DNA of 64,000 nucleotides from an uncultured Holophagaceae bacterium (lineage in GTDB: Bacteria; Acidobacteriota; Holophagae; Holophagales; Holophagaceae), in NCBI GenBank assembly GCA_903937385.1, contig CAIZZF010000010.1, positions 1-64,000 on the forward strand, written 5' to 3'. The position numbers and the translations under genes were made by a program. The notes below the pieces were generated by a model. That model was not told the DNA's origin, ran no database searches, and saw nothing but the letters and a program-made list of their open reading frames with translations. Positions within the stretch are counted from its first letter, which is position 1; each line of letters opens with the position of its first letter. Positions 19,401 to 44,837 of the stretch are shown here, piece by piece.

Positions 19401-21587
19401 CACCACGCCGTTCACAAGATAGGGTGTGGTGGCATTGGCATTGAGGTTTTGAGTGTCACCGTTGTTGTCGTTGCCATCCGTGAAGACGATGAGGAAGTGG
19501 CTCATGCAGGCGGAGGGGGCATCGCCCCCGGTCTCCACCGAACTGAAGACATTGTTGGGATCGTTGAGCTGGGCCAGTGCGTTGGCAACCGCGTAGGTCA
19601 GGGGCGTGCTGTTGCCCGCCTTGAAGGTCGCGATCCGCTTCATGTTGGTGACCGAGTTCCCACTGGAGGCGTTGATGCCATCCGCTGCCGTGTTGTTCAG
19701 CAGCTGCCAGCCTGAGTCTTCCCCGATCTTGGCGGTGGTGGGAACCCCTGCGGTGGTGTTCAGGGTGGTGGCAGAGTTGTTGTGGATCGTGGAGGTATTT
19801 GAGGAGGAGGCTTCCGTGGTGGAGTCCAGGAAGCGGAAGGCCCACAGGACGGAGGCCTGGTTCTGGATCCAGGTCTCGATGGCCGCCCGCTTCACGGCCT
19901 GGACCCGGGACATGCCGGGGACAATATTCACCGAAGCATCCTGCCAGCTCTCACTCTGGTAGACCCCGGCATCGTTGTATTTGGGCACCATCAGGAGATT
20001 GCCCTTGGCCGCCGCACCGTAGCCCTGGCCCCAGCTCACATGGCCCTGCCCACCCGCCAGGTTCGCATTGGCGGCGTCGAAGACGATGTACTTGCCGGAT
20101 GATGAGTAGCTGCCGTTGGCGTATTTCCCTGTGAACAGCCAACCCATGTAGTCCTGGCGGTGCGTGACCATCAGCAGCTTGGTGGTCACGTTATCGGGAT
20201 CCAGCACTTGATCGCCGTTGGTGAGCGTGTAGCACCGGTCCAGCTCGATCTGCAGGCCGCTGCCGTAGGTGACGCTCTTCCGGACGACCTGGTCCTTCAC
20301 GGTTCGCGAGCTCAGGGGGTTGCCGCTGGAGTTGGCGTCTGTGAGCTTCCAGGGGATGGGAATGTCGATCGTGCGGAGGTCCGTGCCCACCATCGCGCTG
20401 AACCGCGCGTGGCTGGCGGCCCGCACCCAGTTGCGGACATCGAGCTTGCCATCGGCGTAGCCGGACATCTGGGTGGGATCACTCGTGGAGGTGTCGGCGA
20501 GGATCTCGTCCACCAGGGTGCCGGCGGGGGTGACCAGGCCAATGAAGGTCGGCCCGGACGTCAGTCCATCAGCGTTGAGTGAGCTGTCGATGTGGGCGGC
20601 CGTAGCCGGGGTGCCGGGATTGTAGGCGGGCACGGTCCAGTTCCACGAGGTGCCGGTCCCGCTGCTCCCGTTGGATGCGGTCCAGTTGATGACCGTGTCC
20701 GAGCCGTTGTGCTTGAGGAGCGAGGCATTGAACGTGACGGTGGCGCCGGCGGTAAAGGTGGTGGTGCCCGTGCTGATGTTGGAGATCTGGAAGGGATCGG
20801 TGGAGGGCACCGTCCAGGTCCAGGTCGACTTGTAGGGGCTGGATCCACTCGCGGTCGTCACGGTCGTGGGGCCAAAACCGTCTGAGCTGGACCAGATGAT
20901 GTTCTTCCGGTTTGCCTGGGATGCTGACGTTTTCAGGTAAGTCGTGAAAGTTAGGAGCGTGCCTGAGGAATAGGTCGCAGGAGAAACCGTGATCGGGTTG
21001 GTGGTCGTCGTGCCATTGCTCTGCGTGATGAGGTTGGTTCCAGTCGTGACGTTGTTCGACTGAGAGGTGATTCCAGTCCCGACGGTAAAGTTGGCAATAG
21101 CGGTTGGAATGGTGCCCGACGATGGGTAAGACGCTTTGGCCGTGATGGTGTAGGTGCTTGTGGGCGTGCAGCTGGTCCCCGTGTTGATCCCCACCGTGCC
21201 GTTGCTGTTGACGGTCACGATGTAGGTGGTATAGACCGCAGGGCACCCGTGGGCCTTCGCCGTGATGGTGTAGGTATTGACTCCGGGCACGGCCACTGTG
21301 CCAGGAACCAGGGTGAAGGCGAGGCTCTGCTTGGCGTTGTTGTCGTCCCGATCCAGGTTCACATACTGGGGATGGAACATGGAGGCCGCCATGGACCCCG
21401 AGAAGTCGAAGACCGTGACGACCTCAGGCTTCAGGGGCGTCGAGGTGGACTTCTGATAGAGATCCAGAAAGTCTGTCTTGGTCGCCTGCAGCCTCGGGTC
21501 CAACTGCGCGCGGAGGGGCAGGAAGGCAGCGAAAGCGAGCCCAAGGCTCAGGATCGCGCGGGAAACAACTCGAGCTTGGATGGTCAT
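16443..21587 (-). CDS. pilY1: PilY1-type type IV pilus tip adhesin with von Willebrand A domain
   Basis: A 1714-residue exported protein; the start at 21587 (MTIQARVVSRAILSLGLAF) follows AGAGGAG and gives a signal peptide ending near LRAQ. A VWA metal site begins at residue 61 (DFSGS), and the second VWA block FLIVFTDGNDNN appears near residue 700. Between them lies a Thr/Ser/Asn-rich Ig-like stretch at about 85-330. The C-terminal half is the PilY1 beta-propeller, with blocks such as AIIGLRKGGRSYYAIDIHDP and GRSVLALDVYTGEVLAAVDM. PilY1 primes pilus assembly and mediates adhesion or surface sensing. It is the last gene of the minor-pilin operon. Confidence 0.9.
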   Translation of the reverse strand: MTIQARVVSRAILSLGLAFAAFLPLRAQLDPRLQATKTDFLDLYQKSTSTPLKPEVVTVFDFSGSMAASMFHPQYVNLDRDDNNAKQSLAFTLVPGTVAVPGVNTYTITAKAHGCPAVYTTYIVTVNSNGTVGINTGTSCTPTSTYTITAKASYPSSGTIPTAIANFTVGTGITSQSNNVTTGTNLITQSNGTTTTNPITVSPATYSSGTLLTFTTYLKTSASQANRKNIIWSSSDGFGPTTVTTASGSSPYKSTWTWTVPSTDPFQISNISTGTTTFTAGATVTFNASLLKHNGSDTVINWTASNGSSGTGTSWNWTVPAYNPGTPATAAHIDSSLNADGLTSGPTFIGLVTPAGTLVDEILADTSTSDPTQMSGYADGKLDVRNWVRAASHARFSAMVGTDLRTIDIPIPWKLTDANSSGNPLSSRTVKDQVVRKSVTYGSGLQIELDRCYTLTNGDQVLDPDNVTTKLLMVTHRQDYMGWLFTGKYANGSYSSSGKYIVFDAANANLAGGQGHVSWGQGYGAAAKGNLLMVPKYNDAGVYQSESWQDASVNIVPGMSRVQAVKRAAIETWIQNQASVLWAFRFLDSTTEASSSNTSTIHNNSATTLNTTAGVPTTAKIGEDSGWQLLNNTAADGINASSGNSVTNMKRIATFKAGNSTPLTYAVANALAQLNDPNNVFSSVETGGDAPSACMSHFLIVFTDGNDNNGDTQNLNANATTPYLVNGVVNPLAGNQQVILHPTYVDRTGTWWNSFTFAAMAAHLTDTSLGTALGADYLAATAPAASTSATPHSFMPFAIKKRGTVDFGTYGHRVTTMTLGVSLGGYYNDNETTYSVSGKRALFRTALLGDPTITSGNATDYHGFDPATDWLVNPADPADYPEVGLRKAGATYFFDGSDPEKLALMLQRAIQSTLAPSNINSTSNPNLPFIGASLGKQVYLGKFTPPATGGPIWSGDLLMFATKEVNNQTQIIDNSGNVVTTLDASTAQWSAYTALKTNRYWYQRKLYTRLPGDGSTAEKGLIAFSDTGTAFTALKGEVMTKGPDGTTSPSTGPYPSLPRTPTAATDSAKMAVVQKAMGADLTSPADPSSGRPTLNRSSIMGDIVDSSPAAIPYTVSSTLAASIAANTKLSLQTGDRFRLVLSGTNQGWLHAFGEISRDTAVTDSSGKTLTLVKGAVDELWAFMPTDFLGQLDYVFGGSTGNAHRFMVDGAPLIYHLDLPPSTGGSGNGAVDSTERAIAIIGLRKGGRSYYAIDIHDPFSPTLKWSLCPDEAAYFDGGRIVTGGPSLVTVKAILAKMGFSTATPALGRVLFNGIVKDAVFFSGGFTTADVDANFKDSSGTATKLGRSVLALDVYTGEVLAAVDMTTIKSDIACIPAGLVPFEFFPNSGMAQRAYFLDYGGGLWSWGSGLTSGSGSYTDYRIDTSDLAKWTTDGLASSNSSVRKVAKDSTSGALYTTLPAPFRVGGFLGQGKSSGTTSAPTPAAVGVAMISGDRNNPVDTQYTSGVGSNRPTGHRLTVVFDRQDSKVWSLDSAGIPDSKLIDFTNQTVAPGLGSAASNLITPGASSFYLTNSGNPYFGYYLSLPGTGASPDYFIPKGISEPMVVSGSLFYSYFTPTTLDVCSGGDGITYSNMVCDVYQPIARDARTTVSCVSGNKTTWAGVASTFSAYGTRGVIQGGAVAVANPALGASKTTLDLKTILGAQQQRFPKVRVWRTVH

Positions 21588-21604
21588 CGCGGAGCTCCTC
21601 TGCG

Positions 21605-22210
21605 CTACTGGACAGGCGTGGAAAGCCACGCCTCTTTGGCGTGGATAAAGGTGATACCGCCCTGCTGGACCTGGGCATCGGAGCGGATGGCCCAAAGGTC
21701 AGGGGCCAGCTTGAGCGGCCCCCCCGAGGCCGGCGTGAAGGCCCCCGGTCCCGAGCCCTGGCTCATGTTGGCGATGGGCAACTTGCCCATGCGGGTGAGA
21801 CCGATGGTGAAGCCCTGGGTGACGCCGGTGGGACCGGGCAGGGTGAGGGCGGTCTGGAGCGTGCCCCCGGACGCGTAGTTGGCGCCGGTGATGATGTCCT
21901 TGGCGACACCGGACAGGGTGTCATCCAGCAGGAGGGCCGTCTTCTCCGCACCCAGTTTTGCGGCCGTGCCGGTTGCAGCATTGCTGTTCGCCAAGTCGAT
22001 CCAGTGGATGGACCACTCGATGCCAGAGTCCGCCACGTTCCGGGCCATGGCCCCCTGCCGGCTGAAGCCCGACGTGACGATCTCCCGCAGGGAGTTGCGG
22101 GACATGGCCATGGAAGCCACGGTGAGGAGCACGAGCAGCATGAGGGCCACGATGATGGTGATGGCGCCCGCTTGGGGCTGGGCCAGATCGCGATGTCGGG
22201 AAGCAAGCAT
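21605..22210 (-). CDS. pilX: PilX-like minor pilin protein
   Basis: A 201-residue protein with the PilX N-terminal pattern: a short polar leader, then a hydrophobic segment (AGAITIIVALMLLVLLTVAS, about 14-33) followed by MAMSRNSLREIVTSGFSRQGAMARNVADSGIEW, seen in segments. PilX proteins lack the strict prepilin glycine-Phe site and act with PilV, PilW and PilY1 in the tip-priming complex. It lies between pilW (10-bp gap) and pilY1 (17-bp gap), matching the Pseudomonas minor pilin order. Identity rests on the N-terminus and on synteny. Confidence 0.82.
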   Translation of the reverse strand: MLASRHRDLAQPQAGAITIIVALMLLVLLTVASMAMSRNSLREIVTSGFSRQGAMARNVADSGIEWSIHWIDLANSNAATGTAAKLGAEKTALLLDDTLSGVAKDIITGANYASGGTLQTALTLPGPTGVTQGFTIGLTRMGKLPIANMSQGSGPGAFTPASGGPLKLAPDLWAIRSDAQVQQGGITFIHAKEAWLSTPVQ

Positions 22211-32965: not shown

Positions 32966-34929
32966 GGCTCCGGTGGGCCCCCTGGAGCGATCACCTGCCG
33001 CTCTGGGTGGCCCTGGGAGCCACGGCGACCACAGGGATCTACAAGAACGGGGAGCTGGCGCTGATGGTCCTGCCGCTGCTCGCGGCGGCGGCGGTGCAGG
33101 CGCTGCGCTGGGACCTCGAGCGGCGGCGCCGCTGGGTGGAGATCGGCGCCCTGGTGTTCTTTCTCGGCAATCTGGCCCGCGGCCACGGGATCTTTCCCGT
33201 GGCCGTTCAGACCCTCTTTGTCCTGGCCGGCGCCCGCCTGGCCCTGCCCCGCGAGCTGCCCCAGCGACGCCAGCTGCTGCTCATCGGCTTCCTGCTCTAC
33301 CTGACCACGGCCCTCGCGGGCACGGACCTCCTCTTCCTCTTCTGGACGCTGGCCTGGGCCTGCGCCGCCACCCTGGCCCTGGTGCAGCAGGCCTGGGAGC
33401 CCTCCGCGGCCCTGCGGCCCGGCCCCCCGCCCCGGCCGCCGCTGGCCCGGGTGCCCCTCTGGGTGGGCGCGGCCGCCCTCTTCGGCGCCGGGTTCTTCGT
33501 GATCCTGCCGCGGCTGAGCCTGGGCCTGCGGCCGGCCCTCCTGGCAGGGGCTGGCACCGGCTTCGGCCAGGCAGGCCTCAGCGAGCGCCTGGACCTGTCC
33601 GGCGGGGGGCCCCTCGAACCCAATCCCGAGGTGGCCCTGCGCATCCTCCCGCCGGAGGGGGTCGACCCCCGCCGGGACCCGGGCTGGGCCCAGGGGCTGG
33701 CGCTGCTGCGCGGCATCACCCTGGAGGTGGTCCGAGGTCCCCGCTGGGAGCCCGCGGCCCTGACTCCGCCCCTGGTGCGCGCCCGAGGCACCGGGTCCGA
33801 ACCGCGCCGGGCCGAGATCCTCTACACCCCGAGCTCCCACGGCATCCTGGCCCTGCCGGCCGGCCTGGCCTCCCTGGAGCCCGCCGAGCTGCCCCTGGTG
33901 CCGGGTCCCGGTGCCAGCCTCCGGTGGCGCTACCCGCGGACCCGCACCGCCCCGGTCACCGTGACCTGGGATCCCCGGGAGCTGGGGGTTGCGGAGCGGC
34001 GCCTGTCCCCGCACCGCCTGGAGCTGCTGACCACCCTGGAGCCGGAGCACGACGCCGCCCGCCGGGCCAGCCTGCGCTTCGCCCCGGGCATCCTGCCCGC
34101 GCCACAGCTGGTCCAGACGCTGGCTGCGGCCCTGGGCCGCTTCCGCTACACCCTGGAGAACCCCGCCGGGCCGGCCGCCAATCCCCTCGAGGCCTTCCTC
34201 GAGCAGACCCAGGCCGGCCACTGCGAGTATTTCGCCTCCGCCCTGGCGCTGATGCTGCGGGCCCGGGGGGTTCCGGCCCGGGTGGTGAACGGCTACCGGC
34301 TGGGGCCCTGGATTCCCGAGGGGGGCTACTTCCGCGTGAGCCAGAACGAGGCCCACAGCTGGGTGGAGTACTGGCACGAGGGCCGCTGGTTCACGGTGGA
34401 TCCGACCCCGGCGGGCGCCGCGGCCGCCGCGGGGGAAGCCCAGGGCTTTGGCCCTCTGGCGCGCTGGCTGGATGCCGTCCGCTACCGCTGGGAGCGCTAC
34501 GTGGTGCGCTTCTCGGACCAGGACCAGCAGAGCGGTCTGGCCTGGCTCCAGGCCCGCGCCCAGAGCTGGGAGTGGCAGTGGCGCGCGCCGTCCCGGCCCC
34601 TGCTCGAGGCCCTGGGCCTCGCAGCCCTCGCCTGGCTGCTCTGGCGCACCCGCGCCCGCTGGCGGACGGTCCCCGAAGGACCCGGGCGCATCCGGGCCCT
34701 GGGCCCCCTGCTGGCGCGCACCCGGCGTTTTGCCGCGCCCCAGGTGGGCGAGACGGCCCGGGCCTGGCTGCTGCGCCTGGGCGAGCTGCGCCCCGACCGC
34801 CGGGAGGCCCTCGCCGCCCTGGCCGAGGCCGTGGACGCCGAGGCCTACGCTGGCAATCGCGACGCAGCCGCCGCCCAGGCGAAGGCCGAAGCCCGCGCCT
34901 GGCGTGGCTGGAAGCCTACTTCTGGGTGA
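32956..34929 (+). CDS. Transglutaminase-like membrane protein, TgpA type
   Basis: A 657-residue protein with several transmembrane helices in the first 190 residues (DUF3488-like), a periplasmic transglutaminase core and a C-terminal membrane segment with cytoplasmic tail. The catalytic triad is intact: Cys423 in AGHCEYFASALALML, His467 in AHSWVEYW and Asp482 in VDPTP. TgpA-type proteins are thought to act on cell-envelope proteins or peptides and often accompany DUF58 and MoxR genes; here the DUF58 gene lies 25 kb away. It starts with a GTG overlapping anmK, and its 3' end overlaps the slipin gene by 14 bp on the other strand. Confidence 0.88.
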   Translation: MGLRLRWAPWSDHLPLWVALGATATTGIYKNGELALMVLPLLAAAAVQALRWDLERRRRWVEIGALVFFLGNLARGHGIFPVAVQTLFVLAGARLALPRELPQRRQLLLIGFLLYLTTALAGTDLLFLFWTLAWACAATLALVQQAWEPSAALRPGPPPRPPLARVPLWVGAAALFGAGFFVILPRLSLGLRPALLAGAGTGFGQAGLSERLDLSGGGPLEPNPEVALRILPPEGVDPRRDPGWAQGLALLRGITLEVVRGPRWEPAALTPPLVRARGTGSEPRRAEILYTPSSHGILALPAGLASLEPAELPLVPGPGASLRWRYPRTRTAPVTVTWDPRELGVAERRLSPHRLELLTTLEPEHDAARRASLRFAPGILPAPQLVQTLAAALGRFRYTLENPAGPAANPLEAFLEQTQAGHCEYFASALALMLRARGVPARVVNGYRLGPWIPEGGYFRVSQNEAHSWVEYWHEGRWFTVDPTPAGAAAAAGEAQGFGPLARWLDAVRYRWERYVVRFSDQDQQSGLAWLQARAQSWEWQWRAPSRPLLEALGLAALAWLLWRTRARWRTVPEGPGRIRALGPLLARTRRFAAPQVGETARAWLLRLGELRPDRREALAALAEAVDAEAYAGNRDAAAAQAKAEARAWRGWKPTSG

Positions 34930-35686
34930 ACTTCTCGAAGGCCTTCATGAGCTCCATGGGCAGCGGGAAGACGATGGTGCTGTTCTTCTCCACGGCGATC
35001 TCCGTGAGGGTCTGCAGGTAGCGCATCTGGATGGCCGTGGGGTTCTGGCTGATCTTGTTGGCGGCTTCCAGCAGCTGCTCGGAGGCCAGAAGCTCGCCCT
35101 CGGCCGCGATGACCTTGGCCCGCTTCTCGCGCTCGGCCTCGGCCTGCTTGCCCATGGCGCGCTGGATCTGCTCGGGCAGGTCGACGCTCTTGAGCTCGAC
35201 ACTGCTCACCTCGACGCCCCAGGGCTCCGTGGAGCGGTCGATGATCTCCCGCAGGCGGGCGCTGAGCTTCTCCCGGTCCGCCAGCAGCTCGTCGAGGCTG
35301 ACCTCGCCGAGGATGGAGCGCAGGGTGGTCTGCGCGATCTGGCTGGTGGCGTAGTAGTAGTTCTCCACGCCGATGATGGCCTGCTTGGGATCCAGCACCC
35401 GGGAGTAGACCACGGCGCTGACCTTCAGGCTGACGTTGTCGCGGGTGATGACGTCCTGGCTCGGCACCTCCAGCACCCCCGTGCGGAGGCTCACGGTCAT
35501 GGCGGTCTGGAAGGGTCTCCAGACGAAGCAGAGGCCTGGTCCCTTGGGTTTGTCCTCCACCTTGCCCAGGGTGAAGACCACCAGCCGCTCGTACTCGTTC
35601 ACCACCTTGAGGCAGGAGAACAGGTAGATCACCACGAAGAGGGCCGCGGGGCCGAAGCAGCCGAGAGAGGTAATCAAGGTGTCCAT
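34916..35686 (-). CDS. Slipin (SPFH/stomatin-like membrane protein)
   Basis: A 256-residue stomatin-family protein with an N-terminal hydrophobic segment (CFGPAALFVVIYLFSCLKVV, about 9-28) and an SPFH domain (VVNEYERLVVFTLGKVEDKPKGPGL, SLRTGVLEVPSQDVITRDNVSLKVSAVVYSRVLDP, in segments), followed by the coiled-coil QAEAEREKRAKVIAAEGEL. Such proteins oligomerise into membrane microdomain scaffolds and often regulate a partner NfeD-type protease, but no nfeD gene is adjacent here. Monocistronic, converging with the transglutaminase gene. Confidence 0.92.
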   Translation of the reverse strand: MDTLITSLGCFGPAALFVVIYLFSCLKVVNEYERLVVFTLGKVEDKPKGPGLCFVWRPFQTAMTVSLRTGVLEVPSQDVITRDNVSLKVSAVVYSRVLDPKQAIIGVENYYYATSQIAQTTLRSILGEVSLDELLADREKLSARLREIIDRSTEPWGVEVSSVELKSVDLPEQIQRAMGKQAEAEREKRAKVIAAEGELLASEQLLEAANKISQNPTAIQMRYLQTLTEIAVEKNSTIVFPLPMELMKAFEKFTQK

Positions 35687-35805
35687 CTAGGACCTCCGGA
35701 GAAAGACGGCCTCAGTCTACGCCTGATTGGCGGGGCCCAGCGGGTCCAGGCCTCGCTTTAGCAGACAGTCCATAGAAATCATCTGGCCTAACTTTCGCCC
35801 CCGGG

Positions 35806-35818
35806 GATCATAATGATC
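35806..35818 (+). promoter_or_regulatory. Palindrome overlapping a possible -10 box upstream of the protease cluster
   Basis: GATCATAATGATC is a perfect 6-1-6 palindrome and contains CATAAT, a 5-of-6 match to a -10 box. It lies 46 bp before the first gene of the 35864-42854 block, in a 177-bp gap with AT-richer composition. No convincing -35 box is found at 16-18 bp upstream, so activation by a regulator would be needed if this is a promoter. Low confidence. Confidence 0.3.
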
Positions 35819-35863
35819 GCCAGTTACCCATTCCAACGAACAGGCCCGAGAGAGGTGATGGAT

Positions 35864-36565
35864 ATGCGCCGTGGCGTTTCATTGCTTTCAGCAGCGTTGC
35901 TCTTCCTGGCGGCAGGGGTCCCGGTCGCCTCCCAGGCTCCGCCTGCCGCAGAGGAGAGCGACTGCCTGTCTGAAAATGCGAACATGAAGAACAAGATGCA
36001 GTTCTTTGTTTGCCTGAATGCCAAGCGGGAATACTGGCAGGACCAGCTCATCAAAGTGCAGAACGAGTGCCAGGCCAACTCCGTGAAATACGCGGGAACC
36101 TACTCCCGCTACCTCTCGCTGAAGAGCAAGGCTAACCAGCTGATCGATATGGTGATCGCCGAGCTGAAATACAGCGACAAGACGCCTCCCGAGAAGTTCA
36201 AGCAGCTCATGCAGGCCGTCAACACCAGCTCCCAGGAGCTCGACAAGTACATCCAGGGCACCTCCTGTGAAGGCGCCAGCAACCGCTTCCTGCCGATCCT
36301 CCTGCCGATCATCACCGCGGCCCTCCTGGACCGAAGCCGCACGCTGCTCGATGGCTGGCTCTCCGGCAACAGGGCCATCAAGGACCAGCGCGCGGCGGAG
36401 CTCGGCACCCAGCGCTGGCGCTCACCCTCGGAATTCGGAGCCATGGCACCCTCCGCGCCACCGCCCCAGGCCCCGCCACCACCGCCCCCCATGGAGCCCC
36501 CCAGCGCGCCACCGGGCGCGGCACCCCCCGTGATTCCACCCTCCCCCCCGCCCGGAGTGTCCTGA
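35864..36565 (+). CDS. Exported cysteine-containing protein with proline-rich tail
   Basis: A 233-residue protein of unknown family. I start at 35864 (MRRGVSLLSAALLFLAAGV), which has GAGAGG at 8 bp; an ATG six bases earlier is too close to that site. A signal peptide ends near VASQA. Four cysteines in the mature part (SDCLS, FFVCLN, NECQA, TSCEG) suit two disulfides in the periplasm. The centre is helical (KAKNQLID-like Lys/Ala-rich helices), and a hydrophobic stretch FLPILLPIITAALL precedes the end, where about 40 residues are mainly Pro and Ala. It ends 24 bp before the caspase-like gene and probably is its operon partner. Confidence 0.7.
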   Translation: MRRGVSLLSAALLFLAAGVPVASQAPPAAEESDCLSENANMKNKMQFFVCLNAKREYWQDQLIKVQNECQANSVKYAGTYSRYLSLKSKANQLIDMVIAELKYSDKTPPEKFKQLMQAVNTSSQELDKYIQGTSCEGASNRFLPILLPIITAALLDRSRTLLDGWLSGNRAIKDQRAAELGTQRWRSPSEFGAMAPSAPPPQAPPPPPPMEPPSAPPGAAPPVIPPSPPPGVS

Positions 36566-36589
36566 GTCTTTCCTGGAGCTGGTTTCGAG

Positions 36590-39500
36590 ATGCCGTCCTC
36601 TGACCCCAAGGGAGCTGCCGTCCACGGCAGGCGCCGGGCAGTCCTGGCCCTGCTGTTCTTGCTTGCCGGCGCCCTGACCGGCCAGGAGCTGCTCATGGTG
36701 ACCGTGCCGGAACGGGCCATGGCCAGCTCCGAGGTCCAGCAGCGGCTCGCCCTCTCCCCGGACGGGAGCACGGCCCTGCTCCTGCAGCAGGGCAACACGC
36801 TCCGCACGGTGGCGCTGGCCTCCGGACGGACCCTCCGGACCTTTGGCCCCCTCCCTGGAAAGGTCACGGCTCTGGCCCTGGAAGGGAGAGCGGGCATCGC
36901 CCTGGTGGCCACCGAGCGGGAGGTCTGGTCGGCCTCGGTGGACCAGGAGGATGCCCCGAGGCGACTCTGGGTGACCGAGGGCAGCATCCAGGACCTGAGC
37001 TTGTCTCCGGACCTGGATCTCCTGGCGGTGGCCACCTCCAAAGGGATGTACGTGCTGAACCCCCGCACAGGTGCCACCGTCTGGTCAGCAGCAGGATCCC
37101 CCGGCACGTTCATCCGGTTCGCACCGGCGGGTAACACGGTCGTCATGGCCATAAGGAAGACCCTGGAGGTCCGCGAGGTCCCCGGCTTCGCCCTGAAACA
37201 GACGTGGACCTTGGACTTTCAGGTTTCGGCCCTCGCCTATGCTCCCGATGCCCGGTCCCTGGCCGTGGGCGGAAAGAACGGCAGGCTGCTGCTCAAGCGG
37301 CTTTCCGATGGACAGACCCTCAAGCAGCTGGATCCCGATCTCGCGGGCCGGGAGGTCGCGCAGCTGACCTTCGCCTCGGATGCCTCCGGATTGCTCGTTG
37401 CCTCGGGACGGACGCTGCAGGCCTTCTCGGGACTCGAGCGGAGCACCCCCGCCTCCCGCACGCTCACGGTGGACGAGCCCATCCTCTCACTGGCGTTCTC
37501 CATGCCCAGTGGAGCCCTGCTGGCTGTCACCGAAGGCGGCAAGGCCCTAGCCCGCTGGCCCCTCGCGGCTCCACCACGGCTTGCGGCGAGGCCCCTCGAG
37601 GAGCTGCCGGTCCTCACCATCCTGAGCCCGGAGCAGGGCACGAAGGTGGCATCGGGCGGCGTGGACTTGGCCTTTCAGGTGACCTTCCCGCCCGAGCGAC
37701 CCGTGTCCCGGATCCGGATCCTGGCCGGGGGGCACCCCGCCCGCCTCACCTTCGCACCCACCCCCGGCGCCGCTGCCACCCCCTCGGAGGGCTCCATCGG
37801 TGCGAGCTTCCAGAGTGGCCGCCGCTACACCTGCCGGGTCCAGCTATCGGAACGGGACACGACCCTCCTGCTGCAGGCCGACAGCCCGGGCGGCTCCAGT
37901 GAACCGGCCCTCCTGACACTGCAAAGGATCTCGAAGGCTGCCCAGGACCTGAAGGTCATCCCTCCCACGGTCACCCTGCTGAGTCCTGCGGGGAAGGTGT
38001 TCCTCCAGTCGCCTTCCCTCGTCGTGTCCTTCCGGGTCAGCTCTGCGCCCGGCCAACCAGTCACCCTGATCCACGCCCTGCTGGATGGCGTCCCTGTCGC
38101 CTTCCGGAACATCACCCGCGCCAATGGCGCGCCCTTCGATTCCGCCCTGGGCTGGGTCAACGGCGAGACCTACCGCTGCCGCATCGAGGTGCCAGGCTGG
38201 GACAGTACCCTGATGCTGGTCGCCGACACGGACCATGCCAGCAGTGCTCCCGCGGTGGCGAAGCTCCAGTGGAAGAGCCCGCTCACGCCCTCCACCAAGT
38301 CCCCTGCCCCGGCCCATGCCGGCTTGGTGCCGGGTGAGACACCCCTCGCAGGGGGCACGGTGGGAACGGACTTCGGCAAGGTGAGAGCCGGGGAGCAGAC
38401 GAGCCGAATCCTGGAGGGCAGTCCCCAGGGATCCGCAGGGGCCATGGAGATGGACGCCAAGGGGCGCCTCCGCTGGCGGGATCCCGCTTCCGACTCAGCC
38501 CGAAAGGCCGCCCCTCGGCCCCCCGGCACGGCCCAGGCGGCAGTGGCCCGGCCCGCGCAGCCGAGCCTGCCCAGCCTGCAGCTCCTCGCGCCCGGGGAGG
38601 GCTCGCGATTCAAGGGAGCGGAGACCCAGCTCTCCCTGAAGGTCGGCGGTGCTCCTGGCGCGGAGGTCACGCGGCTACAGGTCTTCGTGGATGGCGCTCC
38701 CGTCGAGGTCGTCCCCCAGTCCCCCGCAGGGGCCCCCCTCAGCCCGCCCTACTCCGCAGGCCAGGTGCTCAAGGTAAGCCTGCCCCTGCCGCCTCGGGAC
38801 TGTCAGGTCTCGGTGCTCCCCGAAGGCCCTTCCGGAGCGGGCAGGCCCGCGCTGCTCCGGCTCAGGTTCGATGGGGCCAGCACCCCGGTGGCTGCGACCC
38901 GCGGCTCGGTGGTCCAGGCGGCGAAGCCCCGGATCTCGATCATCGAGCCCCAGCACAATGCCCTCATCCGCACCAACGTAGTGCAGCTCGGCGTGAGGGT
39001 GACCGGGGATGCCAAGAGTCCGCCTCCGGCCATCCGCATCCTCGTGGACGCCCAGGAGGTGAAGGCCGAGAGAGTGACGCCCGCGGGAGCGGCGCCCCCA
39101 GCGACTCCGGGCGCTGGCGCTCGGGGACCGGCCGAGGACACCCAGTATTTCAGCCTGACCCTGCCCTCCAAGGACTGCACGGTCATGGCCTATGCCGAGA
39201 CGCCCTACGCCACGAGTGATCCCTCCCTGGTGAAGCTGCGCTGGGAGGCGCCCGCGAAGGCCTCCACCGCCGCCGCGGCAGGCCCGCCCACCCTCTACCT
39301 CCTGGCCGTGGGTGTGAGCAACTACAAGGACAAGAACATCACCCTCACCTATCCCTCGAAGGACGCCAAGGACTTCGCAGAGGCCATGAGCCTGCAGAAA
39401 GGGAAGCTCTATCGGGACGTGGTCGTGAGGGTCCGCACCGATGACCAGGCCACCCGCGACAACATCATGGACGACCTGGAGTGGATCCAGCGGCAGGCCA

Positions 39501-40033
39501 CCCAGCGGGACATGGTCATCGTGTTCCTGGCGGGTCACGGCATCAACGACGCCGTGACCGGGAACTACTACTACCTGCCCTACGACGCCAGCATCGAGGC
39601 GGTGAAGCGGACCATGATCCCGGGCTCGGAGATCCACTCCACGCTGGCGCGGCTCACCGGCACCCGCATCCTCTTCATGGACACGTGTCACGCCGGCAAT
39701 GTCACCGGGACCGCCATGCGGGGCGTGCCCGACCTGCGGCAGTTCCTCCAGGACCTCAAGGAGGGCGGTCAGGGGCTCGTGGTGATCACCTCCTCCCGCC
39801 CCGGCCAGAAGTCCCAGGAGCACCCCGCCTGGAACAACGGCGCCTTCACCAAAGCCCTGGTGGAGGGCCTGAAGGGCAAGGCCGGGAAGGACCGGCAGGG
39901 CTTCATCACCTTCACCGCGCTGGATGCCTACATCACTCAGAGGGTGAAGGAACTGACCAAGGGAACCCAGGCCCCAGCCACCCAGAAGAGCACCGAGGTC
40001 TCTGATTTCCCCTTGGCCTTCTCGGAGCTCTGA
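36590..40033 (+). CDS. Exported caspase-like (peptidase C14) protein with beta-propeller and Ig-like modules
   Basis: A 1147-residue exported protein. Basic leader and signal helix at about 10-32 (RRAVLALLFLLAGALTG). A WD40/quinoprotein-like propeller occupies about 35-340 (SPDGSTALLL, LSPDLDLLAVATSKGMYVLN, YAPDARSLAVGGKNGRLLL). Four similar Ig-like modules begin near 340, 458, 663 and 781, each opening with a LLSPxxG-type strand. The C-terminal caspase-like domain (about 900-1147) starts LYLLAVGVSNYKD and has the dyad His983 (FLAGHG) and Cys1033 (MDTCHAG), 50 residues apart. Substrate is unknown. Prokaryotic caspase homologues commonly cleave after basic or acidic residues; specificity cannot be read here. 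Confidence 0.85.
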   Translation: MPSSDPKGAAVHGRRRAVLALLFLLAGALTGQELLMVTVPERAMASSEVQQRLALSPDGSTALLLQQGNTLRTVALASGRTLRTFGPLPGKVTALALEGRAGIALVATEREVWSASVDQEDAPRRLWVTEGSIQDLSLSPDLDLLAVATSKGMYVLNPRTGATVWSAAGSPGTFIRFAPAGNTVVMAIRKTLEVREVPGFALKQTWTLDFQVSALAYAPDARSLAVGGKNGRLLLKRLSDGQTLKQLDPDLAGREVAQLTFASDASGLLVASGRTLQAFSGLERSTPASRTLTVDEPILSLAFSMPSGALLAVTEGGKALARWPLAAPPRLAARPLEELPVLTILSPEQGTKVASGGVDLAFQVTFPPERPVSRIRILAGGHPARLTFAPTPGAAATPSEGSIGASFQSGRRYTCRVQLSERDTTLLLQADSPGGSSEPALLTLQRISKAAQDLKVIPPTVTLLSPAGKVFLQSPSLVVSFRVSSAPGQPVTLIHALLDGVPVAFRNITRANGAPFDSALGWVNGETYRCRIEVPGWDSTLMLVADTDHASSAPAVAKLQWKSPLTPSTKSPAPAHAGLVPGETPLAGGTVGTDFGKVRAGEQTSRILEGSPQGSAGAMEMDAKGRLRWRDPASDSARKAAPRPPGTAQAAVARPAQPSLPSLQLLAPGEGSRFKGAETQLSLKVGGAPGAEVTRLQVFVDGAPVEVVPQSPAGAPLSPPYSAGQVLKVSLPLPPRDCQVSVLPEGPSGAGRPALLRLRFDGASTPVAATRGSVVQAAKPRISIIEPQHNALIRTNVVQLGVRVTGDAKSPPPAIRILVDAQEVKAERVTPAGAAPPATPGAGARGPAEDTQYFSLTLPSKDCTVMAYAETPYATSDPSLVKLRWEAPAKASTAAAAGPPTLYLLAVGVSNYKDKNITLTYPSKDAKDFAEAMSLQKGKLYRDVVVRVRTDDQATRDNIMDDLEWIQRQATQRDMVIVFLAGHGINDAVTGNYYYLPYDASIEAVKRTMIPGSEIHSTLARLTGTRILFMDTCHAGNVTGTAMRGVPDLRQFLQDLKEGGQGLVVITSSRPGQKSQEHPAWNNGAFTKALVEGLKGKAGKDRQGFITFTALDAYITQRVKELTKGTQAPATQKSTEVSDFPLAFSEL

Positions 40034-40160
40034 TCGCCGCGGTCCTGCCAGATTCAAGACGTTGTCCCGGAACGCGCCTTCCCTTGGGGTGGCCCTCTCG
40101 CGCTAATCTTGCAGGATCCTACCCCATTGACGGCGCGAGCCGAGACCCCAAGGAAGAGGC

Positions 40161-42854
40161 ATGACTGCTGCGGCCTTCGTCGTCACCATCCACACACCTG
40201 GCGGAGTGCCCCCCAGGACTCAGGCCATCCTCAAGCCCCGCACGGTGATCGGCCGTGTGAATGGGGACATCCTGCTGCAGGACCCGCTCTGCTCCTCCAC
40301 CCATGCGGAGCTGCTCCTGGAGGGGGCGACCCTGCGCCTCCGGGATCTCGCCAGCACCAATGGCACCCTGCTGGAGGGGAAGCCCGTGACCGACCTGGTC
40401 TGGCTGCCCGGGACCAAGGTCCAGATCGGGGGTCATGAGCTGACCCTCGAGGATCTCAGCGCCGCACCGCTGCTGGGGCCCAAGGGTACCGTGGTCGTGG
40501 ACAAGGAGGTCATGGCCACGGCACCCGAGCCCTCCTACTTCCTGATCCTTCATGCGCCGGACCAGCCCCCCCGCACCGAGGAGATCTTCCGGGCGCGCAC
40601 GGTGATCGGCCGGGCCGAGGGGGACATCGTCCTGCCGGATGTCCGGTGCTCCTCGACCCACGCGGAGATCCTCTTCGACGGGGCCGAGGTGCGGCTGAAG
40701 GATCTCGGCAGCACCAACGGAACCAAGCATGGCCAGGACCGCATCACGGAATGGCTCTGGCAGCCCGGTGAGGTGCTGGAGATAGCCTCCTTCAAGCTTG
40801 AGCTGCGCGAGATCCGCACGAGAACCCAGGCCGCACTCCCGTCTGTCGCCGGAGCCCCCCCTGCCGAAGTTACCGCCAAGCCGAAAGGGACGACCTGGCG
40901 GACACTCGCCCTTCGGGGTGCCGCCCTCTTGGGGCTCTGTGGGCTGGCCCTGTGGGGCCTCACCAAGGCCTTTGGCTGGGAGCTTCCTGACCTCCCAGGG
41001 GGCGGCAACGCCATCCTCTCGGAGACCCGGGAGGCCACCGTCCAGTTCGTCTGGTACTCCGGGCAGCCGGGAGCCAACGCCACGGGAGGGACCGCCCCCG
41101 CCCGCATCCGCGTGAGCCCCAACCGCACCGGGACCGTCTCGGTCGGCGTCTCCGAGGAGTTCGCCGGTGGCGGGGGGAACCAGTGGCGCACTGCCGTCTG
41201 GTTGGCCGCCTTCAACGCGACCCGGACGCTGGGAGCCTCCATCTCGGACTGCGAGTTCAATGTCCATGTGTCTGGGCATACGGACGGTCCTTCCGCCGGC
41301 ATGCTGACCACCGCCGCGATGCTGGCCCTCCTGAGGGGGAAGTCCATCCCCCAGGACACCACCATGACCGGGACCATCAATCCGGACGGTACCGCAGGCC
41401 CCGTGACCGGCATTGTCCAGAAGATGGAGGGCGCCAAGCAGGCGGGCATCAAGCGCTTCGGCTTCCCCCTGGGCTGCCGCAACCACAAGGACCAGAAGAC
41501 CGGGCAGGATGTGGACCTCCTGCTGGTGGGCCAGAAACTGGGCCTGGAGGTCAAGGAGATCGGGGACATCCACGAGGCCTACGAGTTCCTCACCCGGGAC
41601 AAGCTGCCCCGCACCGAGCCCATCGCCGAGGCCGAGATGGAGCCGGCCCTGGCCACCCAGACCCTCCTCCGCACGAAGCTGGCGACCTGGAAGTCCCGGG
41701 TCGAGCGCGAGGCGGCCGGACTCCGGAATGAGGTCAAGGCCACAGGGGTACCGCCCCCGGTCTACGCCCACCTCATGGCCGAGGCAGACAAGGCCTTCGA
41801 GACCGCCAAGCGCGATGAGCGCAACGGCTTCCTCATGCCCGCCCTCCAGGGCTATGTCCAGACCGTGAGTGCCTTCGCCGGTGCCACCCAGACCGTCTCG
41901 GCCTATGCCCACATGTTCAAGGGCGACCAGGGCGGCCTGGTCGAGGCCATCCAGAGCGCCGCTGCCATCGGCAGTGAGGTCACGGCCTTCGGGCAGCAGC
42001 TGGAGCTCAAGGCCCTGCGCCAGACCCGCGGCGGCCAGCTCACCAGCTCCAAGGTCTGCACCACCTACGTGAAGGCGCGGGCAGCCGCCCTCATCGCCGA
42101 TGACTTCGCCGCTCCCGCCGTGGCCGTCCTCAAGAAGATCCAGGAGAAGAAGGGGCAGCTCAAGGGCGAGAATCTCGAGTCCCTCATGACCCGGATCACG
42201 CTGCCCCTGATTTACTACGACCTGTCGAAGGTCCAGCTTGAGTTCACCCGGGACATGCAGGATTTCATCGCGGAGGAAGGCGAGGCCAAGTCCCTCAGCA
42301 CCAGGTCCGTGAGCCGGGCCGTCACCAGCTACGCCTCGCTGGCCACGGCTGTGCTCGCCTACTTCGATGCGCTGATCACAGAGGAAGTGGCCAAGGGCAA
42401 GGGGCTCTCCATCGAGGAGGCCAAGGCCCTGATCGCCAACCGCGAAGCGGACTATTACCTCGCCCAGAAGGCGAAGCTGCTGGCCGAGAGCCAGGACAGG
42501 TCCAGCGATGGCGCCAAGCTCATCCGCCTCGCCGCAGCCGGTTATGCCTTCCTGGACGGGGCCAAGCTGGTCAACAAGTGGTACTCGCTCGGCGCCGGGT
42601 TTGACGCTCGCGGAGGCGTGGTGCTGGAGAACCGCCGGGCACTCACCGCGCAGCTTGACCTGGCCCGGCGGAATGCCCGGGAAGCCGCCGCCCGGGCCAA
42701 GGCTTCCGCGGGCTTCGTGCCTACGCCAGCGCGTCTGGCCTACCAGATCGCCAATGCCCGCCGGGAAGGCAACGACGAAGAGAAGCTCGCCGCCCTGGCC
42801 TCCTACTGGCAGGCCTCCCTCTGGAGCGAACTGGCCGCCGCGCCGGAGAGGTAG
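40161..42854 (+). CDS. Membrane protein with two FHA domains and a Lon-type (S16) protease domain
   Basis: An 897-residue protein with good ribosome site AAGGAAGAGG. FHA1 (about 1-100) has GR at 31-32, S45-x-x-H48 and STNG at 65-68; FHA2 (about 125-220) has GR at 150-151, S164-x-x-H167 and STNG again. A transmembrane helix lies near 247-270 (LALRGAALLGLCGLALWGL). A Lon proteolytic domain follows (about 285-480) with Ser378 in DGPSAG and Lys421 in GIVQKMEG; the 43-residue spacing equals that of the Lon Ser-Lys dyad. The rest is helical. Since FHA domains read phospho-threonine in the cytoplasm, the protease half should face outward. No Lon AAA+ domain is present. Confidence 0.85.
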   Translation: MTAAAFVVTIHTPGGVPPRTQAILKPRTVIGRVNGDILLQDPLCSSTHAELLLEGATLRLRDLASTNGTLLEGKPVTDLVWLPGTKVQIGGHELTLEDLSAAPLLGPKGTVVVDKEVMATAPEPSYFLILHAPDQPPRTEEIFRARTVIGRAEGDIVLPDVRCSSTHAEILFDGAEVRLKDLGSTNGTKHGQDRITEWLWQPGEVLEIASFKLELREIRTRTQAALPSVAGAPPAEVTAKPKGTTWRTLALRGAALLGLCGLALWGLTKAFGWELPDLPGGGNAILSETREATVQFVWYSGQPGANATGGTAPARIRVSPNRTGTVSVGVSEEFAGGGGNQWRTAVWLAAFNATRTLGASISDCEFNVHVSGHTDGPSAGMLTTAAMLALLRGKSIPQDTTMTGTINPDGTAGPVTGIVQKMEGAKQAGIKRFGFPLGCRNHKDQKTGQDVDLLLVGQKLGLEVKEIGDIHEAYEFLTRDKLPRTEPIAEAEMEPALATQTLLRTKLATWKSRVEREAAGLRNEVKATGVPPPVYAHLMAEADKAFETAKRDERNGFLMPALQGYVQTVSAFAGATQTVSAYAHMFKGDQGGLVEAIQSAAAIGSEVTAFGQQLELKALRQTRGGQLTSSKVCTTYVKARAAALIADDFAAPAVAVLKKIQEKKGQLKGENLESLMTRITLPLIYYDLSKVQLEFTRDMQDFIAEEGEAKSLSTRSVSRAVTSYASLATAVLAYFDALITEEVAKGKGLSIEEAKALIANREADYYLAQKAKLLAESQDRSSDGAKLIRLAAAGYAFLDGAKLVNKWYSLGAGFDARGGVVLENRRALTAQLDLARRNAREAAARAKASAGFVPTPARLAYQIANARREGNDEEKLAALASYWQASLWSELAAAPER

Positions 42855-42904
42855 GAGCCTCTCGAGCCTGGCCAAGCTTCGGCTGGACTGCTCCTGGGGC
42901 GCCG

Positions 42905-43528
42905 CTAGCGCCTGACGTAGGGATTCGTCTCCGCCTCTTCGCCAATGGTGGTGGCGGGACCGTGCCCGGGGATCACCAGGGTCCCACCGTCCATGACGTA
43001 GAGCTCCCGGCGGATGCTCTGCTCCAGCAGGTCCCAGCTGCCGCCCCACAGGTCAGTCCGACCGACGCCGCCGCGGAAGAGGGTGTCTCCCGCCAGCACC
43101 ACCTGGCCCTGCTCGAAGGCGCCGTGGAAGCAGCAGGAGCCGGGCGTGTGGCCCGGGGTGTGCAGGGTGGCGAGGTCCAGGTGCCGATCGCCCGCGCAAA
43201 GGTCCACCATGTCCGGTTGCGGGATGGCAGGCATCCCGAACCTCCCGGTCTGCTGGGGCAGGGCCTCGATCAGGAACCCATCGTCACTGTGCAGGTGCGC
43301 CGGACACTGCCAGAGATCCTGCAGCTCCCGCGTGGCGCCTACGTGATCGAAATGGGCGTGGGTGTGGAGCAGGGCCGTGACCTTGAAGCCCAGGGTCTCG
43401 ACCCGCTTGCGGATCTTGGCCCCGTCACCGCCAGGGTCCACCACCAGCCCGAGCCCCGTGGTGGGCTCCCAGAGCAGGGTGCAGTTGCAGCCCAGGGGGC
43501 CGACAGGGAAGGATTCGAGGCGCAGCAT
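42905..43528 (-). CDS. Metallo-beta-lactamase-fold hydrolase (glyoxalase II-like)
   Basis: A 207-residue MBL-fold hydrolase of the hydroxyacylglutathione hydrolase-like group. The start at 43528 (MLRLESFPVGPLGCNCTLLWE) follows the previous stop by one base. Zinc ligands are in HTHAHFDHVG (about residues 56-65), HTPGHTPGS and VLAGDTLFRGGVGRTDLWGG, with a final histidine in IPGHGPAT. The short length suggests a general thioester or lactoylglutathione-type hydrolase without the C-terminal GloB domain. Substrate cannot be assigned. Confidence 0.88.
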   Translation of the reverse strand: MLRLESFPVGPLGCNCTLLWEPTTGLGLVVDPGGDGAKIRKRVETLGFKVTALLHTHAHFDHVGATRELQDLWQCPAHLHSDDGFLIEALPQQTGRFGMPAIPQPDMVDLCAGDRHLDLATLHTPGHTPGSCCFHGAFEQGQVVLAGDTLFRGGVGRTDLWGGSWDLLEQSIRRELYVMDGGTLVIPGHGPATTIGEEAETNPYVRR

Positions 43529-43529
43529 C

Positions 43530-44102
43530 CTACCAGCGTAGATCAAACACGCAGGCCTTGGCGCCCTGGCGGCGGCAGTCCGCGCCTGGCCGGTGACTGA
43601 CCACGGCGCGGGACCCGCCATAGTGCTCCGCCAGGCGCTCGAGAAGGCCCCAGTCCAGGTCACAGGGATAGGGGTTCTCGCAGACCACTTCGGCGTGCCG
43701 CGGCCGGTCCATGGTGCAGTAGTAGCCGCCGATGCCCGCACCCCGGTGGTTCACCTGGTAGGCGACGGCGAGCACCCGGAGGGCCCGGTCGAGGGTGTCC
43801 ATGTCCGGCGCGAAGCGGGCGGTGTCCGGAATCGCCCGCCCCATGACCCTTAGGGCAGGACGGCCATGGGCCCGCTCCACGGCCGCGTGGAAGGCCAGGT
43901 TCGCCTCGAGCGGCACCCAGGCCTCGGCCTTCGGCAGGCCGAGGCCTGCTTCCCCCAGCAGCTGCAGGACACCCTGCCAGGGGATGCCGTGGGCCGCCAG
44001 CCCCTCGGCCACGCCGAGGACGGCACCGCCCCAGACTTCGGCCTGGGCCTCTGGTGAAAACAGCCTGTCCTTCAAGAAAGAACTCCAAGGAAATTTATTC
44101 AA
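43530..44102 (-). CDS. Uncharacterised protein, C-terminus like V4R/heme-NO-binding domains
   Basis: A 190-residue soluble protein (MNKFPWSSFLKDRLFSPEAQ). The C-terminal part (CENPYPCDLDWGLLERLAEH, then RPGADCRRQGAKACVFDLRW) resembles the ending of V4R and heme-NO-binding-like domains, in which paired cysteines precede a C-x-F-x-(L/I)-x-W terminus. If so it may be a small-molecule or redox sensor. It is not preceded by a kinase or regulator. It starts divergently from the DUF1648 gene across an AT-rich 87-bp gap, and is followed by the MBL hydrolase, probably as one transcript. Confidence 0.55.
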   Translation of the reverse strand: MNKFPWSSFLKDRLFSPEAQAEVWGGAVLGVAEGLAAHGIPWQGVLQLLGEAGLGLPKAEAWVPLEANLAFHAAVERAHGRPALRVMGRAIPDTARFAPDMDTLDRALRVLAVAYQVNHRGAGIGGYYCTMDRPRHAEVVCENPYPCDLDWGLLERLAEHYGGSRAVVSHRPGADCRRQGAKACVFDLRW

Positions 44103-44189
44103 TTAATCTAATTTTATGCAAGCAGTCAAGGGCGGCCGGATCGAACGGCTCTGGAGGCCAAGCCTTCTCAGCCCGGATAATCTGGGGGC

Positions 44190-44837
44190 ATGCCGCCGAT
44201 CGAGCCCCCGCGCACCCGCTGGTTCTCCCGCTGGGACCTGCTCCCCCTGGGAGTGGCGGTGGTGCTGCTTTTCCTCCTGCCGACGCTGCTGAAGGGCCTG
44301 CCCGACCCCCTGCCCAGCCACTTCGACAGGCACGGGCACGCCAACGGCTGGACCCCTCTGCGCGGCCTCCCCTATCTGGTATTCGGGATTCCGGCCTTTG
44401 CCTGGGGGCTGCTGCTGGTGTCGGGCAACGCCTTCACCGGGACGGAGCAGGATCCGGATGGCCGGAAGGGCGCGGCCATGGCGCCCCTGCGGGGCCTGGT
44501 GGCCACCGGGATGGAGCTGCTGATGCTGGCGCCGGTGGCCATCCTCCGGGTCGGAATGGTGGGCCTGTGGGTGCTCCTCGCCCTGTTCTTCCTGTGCCTG
44601 GCTGTGGGCGTAGGCCTCATGATCCGGGACATGAAGCGGAACGGCCTGGGACCCGTCGATACCCGACACTACCGGTGGGGACTCTTCTACGTGAATCCGG
44701 ACGATCCCGCGCTCTGGGTGCCCAAGCCGCTGGGCCTGGGCTGGACGCTTAATTTCGCTCATGGCGGAAGCTGGCTCATCATGGGGCTGCTGCTCCTTCC
44801 CCTTCTGCTCCTGGCGCTCCTGCCCCGGCTTCGATGA
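44190..44837 (+). CDS. DUF1648/DUF5808 membrane protein
   Basis: A 215-residue integral membrane protein with about five transmembrane helices. The N-terminal half has the DUF1648 (SdpI-related) signature LPSHFDRHGHANGW after the first helix. The C-terminal part has the DUF5808 pattern YRWGLFYVNPDDPALWVPK then GLGWTLNFAHGGSWLI. Such proteins occur with SdpI-type immunity and signalling proteins, but a defined function is not known. It begins divergently from the V4R-like gene and may be transcribed with the small ORF and uvrC. Confidence 0.8.
   Translation: MPPIEPPRTRWFSRWDLLPLGVAVVLLFLLPTLLKGLPDPLPSHFDRHGHANGWTPLRGLPYLVFGIPAFAWGLLLVSGNAFTGTEQDPDGRKGAAMAPLRGLVATGMELLMLAPVAILRVGMVGLWVLLALFFLCLAVGVGLMIRDMKRNGLGPVDTRHYRWGLFYVNPDDPALWVPKPLGLGWTLNFAHGGSWLIMGLLLLPLLLLALLPRLR

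Follow-up and report, generated by a model that had tools for sequence, protein, structure and literature searches.

Research on Ser/Thr phosphorylation in bacteria is usually kept apart from research on envelope proteolysis. In the CRISPR-linked CalpL, a Lon domain lacking AAA+ is joined to a signal-receiving domain, and the system is nucleotide-sensing. YlbL and SepM carry an S16 peptidase domain, likewise without AAA+, together with a PDZ domain and an N-terminal transmembrane (TM) segment, and are thought to be extracytoplasmic (PMC6051672; PMC11197336). In bacterial orthocaspases and metacaspases, the caspase domain is most often partnered by WD40, and N-terminal helices resembling signals have been described (PMC3501461). 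The locus considered here, a three-gene cassette, lies in the first 64,000 nucleotides (hereafter, the window) of contig CAIZZF010000010.1, assembly GCA_903937385.1, from an uncultured Holophagaceae bacterium. Each of its domain families is already known, as are AAA+-less extracytoplasmic Lon proteins (YlbL, SepM) and WD40-caspases; the FHA-FHA-TM-Lon-helical architecture of its third protein, and the cassette as a whole, were absent from all libraries and literature searched. An initial annotation, made from the letters of the window alone, knew of no described system with this set, and no published description was found in the open-access literature, nor any relevant paper joining FHA with Lon and caspase, FHA with metacaspase, or Holophaga with caspase.

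The three consecutive genes and their products are named P1, P2, and P3 in 5′ to 3′ order and occupy successive plus-strand open reading frames (ORFs) at 35864-36565, 36590-40033, and 40161-42854; all features of the three given below are on the plus strand. The observation made in the initial annotation—a small exported protein with four cysteines and a proline tail, an exported protein ending in a caspase, and a membrane protein combining two FHA domains with a Lon dyad—proved correct in every testable detail, and the cassette is real. Its interpretation, a phosphorylation-controlled system placing two proteases outside the cytoplasm, is partly supported when taken as a whole. The preferred reading is of a mobile (accessory) envelope-protease cassette operating as a phosphothreonine-gated relay, to which a probability of roughly 0.4 is given. 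Established from sequence are the unit, its presence or absence as a block, the intact dyads, the link between P1 and P2 through fusion, and the export signals.

Conserved adjacency of the three families had been set as a test beforehand, and it was borne out. Across 93 genomes of the class, P3 was found in ten, stand-alone P1 in eight, and P2 in those same eight. Gene maps revealed that the P1-P2-P3 order and orientation are kept in the window's own genome (G000) and in G048, G047, G038, G070, G066, G064, and G063, making the three neighbours in eight of the nine informative genomes, that is, those in which the upstream side of P3 is visible (the G037 contig begins within P3). The ninth, G059, carries P3 alone, with P1 and P2 not detected. 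Named homologue records comprise Holophagaceae metagenome assemblies and one Acidobacteria groundwater assembly. Recurrence of all three genes, in order, among related genomes means that the ORFs are genuine rather than accidental. The ratio of non-synonymous to synonymous substitution rates (dN/dS) is well below 1 across every domain of the three proteins, with caspase and Lon being the most constrained domains of the cassette.

P3 (897 residues) begins with two FHA domains recognised by Pfam: FHA1 at residues 27-98 (40239-40454; FHA/YscD_cpl), with R32, S45, H48, and N67 conserved wherever the N terminus is present, and FHA2 at residues 147-207 (40599-40781), with R151, S164, H167, and N186 invariant. 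The residues of the phosphothreonine pocket (GR...SxxH...N) are therefore kept in both FHA domains of the homologues, phospho-binding itself being only predicted. A single TM segment follows at residues 249-267 (40905-40961; hydropathy), with Lys/Arg-rich sequence on its N-terminal, FHA side. The Lon proteolytic domain occupies residues 290-482 (41028-41606; Lon_C 1e-9) and contains Ser378 (41292-41294), within DGPSAG, and Lys421 (41421-41423), within VQKMEGAK, both invariant across Holophagaceae and Myxococcota homologues; fold and Ser-Lys dyad together agree with peptidase family S16. An AF2 model of residues 280-897 shows the Lon fold followed by a large helical region of lower model confidence (residues 490-897; 41628-42851), which is conserved and belongs to no Pfam family. 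The Lon domain filled the VIA match list for this model, matching Bacillus subtilis LonBA (BsLonBA; 8dvh_A) with Z 20.4, at 2.4 A over 173 residues. No AAA+ family was found in P3 by Pfam, and its scores fall far below the equivalog cut-offs, which sets it apart from canonical LonA/LonB. Lon-like folds of the RadA/BrxL type lack the catalytic dyad; an inactive fold of this kind was rejected for P3, as both dyad residues are present. The dN/dS measured against three relatives is 0.00-0.11 for Lon and 0.37-0.66 for the linker, relative to which the FHA domains are also slow-evolving.

Like YlbL and SepM, P3 has a Lon domain without AAA+ after a TM segment, and in P3 this domain is predicted to be extracytoplasmic; unlike them, it has tandem FHA domains and a 400-residue helical C terminus, and no PDZ domain was detected in it by the Pfam scan. 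It scores 19.1 bits against the NCBIfam SepM model NF041438, for which the cut-off is 200. As to CalpL, the Pfam scan found neither a SAVED/CARF domain nor a CRISPR gene among the three proteins.

The Lon-helical half of P3 is homologous to a family carried by 21 of 379 Myxococcota genomes (up to 59% identity; a Polyangiaceae assembly is the named record), of which Pfam and NCBIfam cover only the Lon part; a profile search of 297 Acidobacteriota genomes found no further members. Ser and Lys are kept in all 20 Myxococcota ORFs examined, and 14 of these carry a lipobox-like signal under a relaxed pattern. P3 differs in bearing FHA-FHA-TM in place of this signal: none of the eight Myxococcota homologues scanned with Pfam has an FHA domain, and thus, the addition of FHA appears Holophagaceae-specific within the search. 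As the Lon-helical kin mostly carry lipoprotein-like signals, an extracytoplasmic Lon is supported, and the Lon domain of P3 most likely lies outside the cytoplasm; the topology of P3 as a whole is strongly predicted. On two Myxococcota contigs, a tyrosine recombinase gene (phage integrase family) stands immediately upstream of the Lon-helical gene (L103:269-1195 and L126:6564-7508), and on another, a gene for an eCIS_core-domain protein lies downstream (L127:12283-13902).

P2 (1,147 residues) has one signal-like N-terminal segment by hydropathy, followed by a propeller region at residues 45-325 (36722-37564) with WD40-type Pfam matches, ANAPC4_WD40 scoring above its cut-off, and a match to the PkwA propeller chain 5yzv (E 1.7e-7). 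Ig-like repeats extend over residues 336-890 (37595-39259) and include Big_7 (2.5e-8), and the protein ends in a caspase domain (C14) at residues 895-1147 (39272-40030; Peptidase_C14 7e-20). His983 (39536-39538), within LAGHGIN, and Cys1033 (39686-39688), within MDTCHAGN, are unchanged in all 16 caspases aligned and correspond to the [GS]HG and D[TSA]CH[AS] motifs of C14 caspases, a family whose features P2 shares and whose activity is predicted for it. Against the same three relatives, dN/dS is 0.01-0.12 in the caspase domain and 0.13-0.39 in the propeller and Ig parts. Degenerate dyads had been named in the initial annotation as a possible refutation; both were found intact, and both enzymes look catalytically functional from their sequences. 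Asp1031 stands two residues ahead of Cys1033, and an Asp at this position before the catalytic Cys is a feature of basic-specific metacaspases. With the WD40 orthocaspases, P2 shares a p20-type caspase domain, the His/Cys dyad, and a WD40-type propeller; it differs in that its caspase is C-terminal to both propeller and Ig repeats and in having separate P1 and Lon partners. With a signal peptide on P2 and lipoprotein-like kin for P3, the placing of two proteases outside the cytoplasm is most likely correct.

P1 (233 residues) combines one N-terminal signal-like segment with four cysteines (34, 50, 69, and 135), a Pro-rich tail, and a conserved hydrophobic stretch, FLPILLPIITAALLD. AF2 predicts an all-helical structure for it (mean pLDDT 65), to which Foldseek gave no significant match (best E 0.27), and no curated family in Pfam or NCBIfam scores above cut-off; a weak resemblance to AAA_lid_9/ClpC (Pfam E 0.001, PDB E 0.035) fell below cut-off and was treated as helical chance. 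A P1-like domain forms the N terminus of exported propeller-caspases of about 1,180 residues in G044, G045, and G031, where it retains Cys69, Cys135, and the hydrophobic segment near residue 145; a similar N terminus was recognised by eye in the alignment of one G076 caspase. In G044, G045, and G076, the P1-bearing caspase clusters with a caspase lacking the domain, and the combination of P1 domain plus plain caspase thus recurs. Since P1-like domains occur fused to propeller-caspases, P1 is functionally tied to P2, a link that would fit P1 as subunit, inhibitor, or substrate alike.

In the proposed mechanism, P3 would be a single-pass inner-membrane protein with its FHA pair in the cytoplasm and its Lon and helical domains in the periplasm. 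The FHA domains would recognise cytoplasmic partners by their phosphothreonine, and the docking of such a partner would cluster or rearrange P3 and thereby turn Lon on. Lon would then cleave P1 (possibly a dissociated subunit of the P2 caspase) and/or P2, freeing or activating the exported propeller-caspase for action on envelope or extracellular proteins; in many genomes, an adjacent papain-like protease, restrained by a chagasin-type inhibitor, would act likewise. That Lon acts before the caspase is a weak guess. Phospho-gating is proposed with moderate confidence from the conserved FHA pockets, the approximately 19 loci with Ser/Thr kinase domains in the window's genome, and one related caspase operon with a CHASE2 kinase. 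Several points weigh against this relay: no kinase is encoded in the cassette, and FHA domains can serve as phospho-independent scaffolds; the Myxococcota Lon-helical homologues have no caspase-motif gene nearby; P3 can function without the caspase, given that G059 carries it without detectable P1 or P2; and a single transcript is not assured, as the gap between P2 and P3 is 127 nt.

The most serious competitor to the relay is constitutive envelope proteolysis or quality control with no phospho-regulation, in which the FHA domains merely tie P3 to a scaffold in the cytoplasm and the substrates of Lon, caspase, and papain are proteins of the periplasm or cell surface. The Myxococcota Lon-helical homologues, exported without FHA and in some cases beside housekeeping genes such as xseA, would suit such a role, as would the precedent of YlbL, a membrane-bound extracytoplasmic Lon-PDZ protease without AAA+ that helps to clear the division inhibitor YneA (PMC6051672). 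The phosphothreonine-binding residues kept in both FHA domains and their slow evolution relative to the linker argue in the other direction, and quality-control genes seldom show so patchy and island-like a distribution; constitutive proteolysis is considered unlikely, at about a one-in-four level of credence.

The cassette (35726-42912) is absent from an empty site in G049, which aligns by blastn to window positions 33419-35725 and 42913-44335, with 29 bp replacing the 7.2 kb. The window's own site is marked, outside the unit, by a minus-strand SPFH/Band7 gene on the left (34916-35686; 100% identical to the Band7 of G049) and a minus-strand MBL-fold hydrolase gene on the right (42905-43741), both assigned by Pfam and genus-mate comparison and directly adjacent to each other in cassette-free genus-mates. 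The flanking genes of the window match no flank in G038, G070, G064, or G066, and in G038, the cassette and the Band7 gene are on separate contigs. As far as sequence comparison reaches, the cassette is an accessory unit gained or lost as a block among Holophagaceae. Occurrence at several different sites favours transfer, and ancestral loss may be the source of the presence/absence pattern at the window's site. No convincing terminal repeats or target-site duplications were found at the cassette borders, and no P3 relatives were found in viral contigs and plasmids, so that nothing points to transport by phages or plasmids. The G047 assembly contains two versions of the locus (L073 on C150 and L074 on C302), about 93% alike over P3 and sharing MBL-side flanking genes, which represent either a strain mixture or a duplication.

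An accessory cassette with differing sites, and sites left empty in relatives, could also be a defence or cell-death island, in which an intracellular infection or stress signal, relayed as Thr phosphorylation, sets off destruction of the envelope by the caspase and its companions. The caspase domain matches a PADLOC caspase model (1.5e-10), a generic match, and the FLPILLPIITAALLD stretch of P1 could contact membranes. Set against this, neither P1 nor P3 has a counterpart among the PADLOC models, no other defence gene was seen among the neighbours examined, and P3 has no relative in viral contigs or plasmids. To our knowledge, the catalytic parts of described caspase defence systems are not outside the cytoplasm, in contrast to the predicted extracytoplasmic placing here. 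Caspase-containing NTP-dependent conflict systems (PMC7159879) are defined by a cassette-encoded NTPase or EACC1-type partner; no NTPase domain was found in P1, P2, or P3 by Pfam, and the EACC1-caspase model gave 81.9 bits against a cut-off of 140. Defence is judged improbable, more so than constitutive proteolysis.

The initial annotation had described a set of three genes; the conserved unit stood, although the set is reduced in G059 and often larger elsewhere, with a papain-like protease and a chagasin-type inhibitor. An exported papain-like gene with a signal-like N terminus adjoins the cassette in five loci (L063:3555-6076, L064:563-3280, L066:317-2028, L075:63-1415, and L074:8736-10613; of these, L063, L064, and L066 also contain genes for chagasin-type inhibitors). 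It is divergent from P1 in G038, G070, G064, and G063, and another papain-like gene adjoins the 3′ end of P3 in the second G047 locus; inhibitor genes accompany the papain gene in G038, G070, and G064, and in G063 one stands with a further papain gene. Among the 56 genomes of genera g1, g6, and g7, the papain family occurs in six, all six being among the nine cassette carriers (hypergeometric 2.6e-6, relatedness ignored). The homologue in the window's genome (G000:C10:82150-83211) lies about 18 kb past the window end. Secreted proteases for feeding or competition, with P2 and papain attacking outside proteins, the inhibitor shielding the producer, and P3 controlling maturation, would account for the inhibitor and papain genes beside the cassette or a second papain copy and for the signal-like N termini of P1, P2, and papain, but are as improbable as defence, since the multi-domain propeller-Ig-caspase probably resembles a regulated processor more than a digestive enzyme and the cassette has no secretion-system gene. 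Elsewhere in the window, a minus-strand ORF of 1,750 residues (16443-21695) has no Pfam match at E 0.01.

For the phosphothreonine-gated relay, a parallel is offered by related caspase loci without P3, which adjoin CHASE2-cyclase genes in four cases (G045, G044, G031, and G076). In G076, a run of overlapping or abutting genes (L072:929-13320) encodes two propeller-caspases (one with the P1-like N terminus), a CHASE2-cyclase, a FecR-looking protein, a CHASE2-Ser/Thr kinase, and a GAF protein. In G045, four consecutive caspase-type genes stand beside the CHASE2-cyclase (L069:2567-13659): a P1-fused propeller, a Sel1-repeat-like, an FGE-sulfatase-like, and a propeller type. These loci resemble the cassette in setting related exported propeller-caspases, several of them P1-fused, beside a transmembrane signalling protein and differ in that their partner is a sensor cyclase or kinase. 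The shared theme, as predicted from the encoded proteins, is the pairing of exported caspases with a signalling protein that spans the membrane, which here is FHA-TM-Lon.

In its fullest form, the proposal holds that cytoplasmic phosphothreonine, sensed via tandem FHA domains, allosterically activates a periplasmic AAA+-independent Lon and so starts an exported Lon-caspase-papain cascade on a mobile cassette, which would be a previously undescribed transmembrane signalling principle; this stronger version is doubtful. If true, tandem FHA domains and an extracytoplasmic Lon in one protein would constitute a direct wire from kinase to protein cutting beyond the membrane and would show how control over a Lon domain is achieved in the absence of its ATPase. 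The compact cassette offers a natural, testable multi-protease relay and suggests what the exported caspases of bacteria might do.

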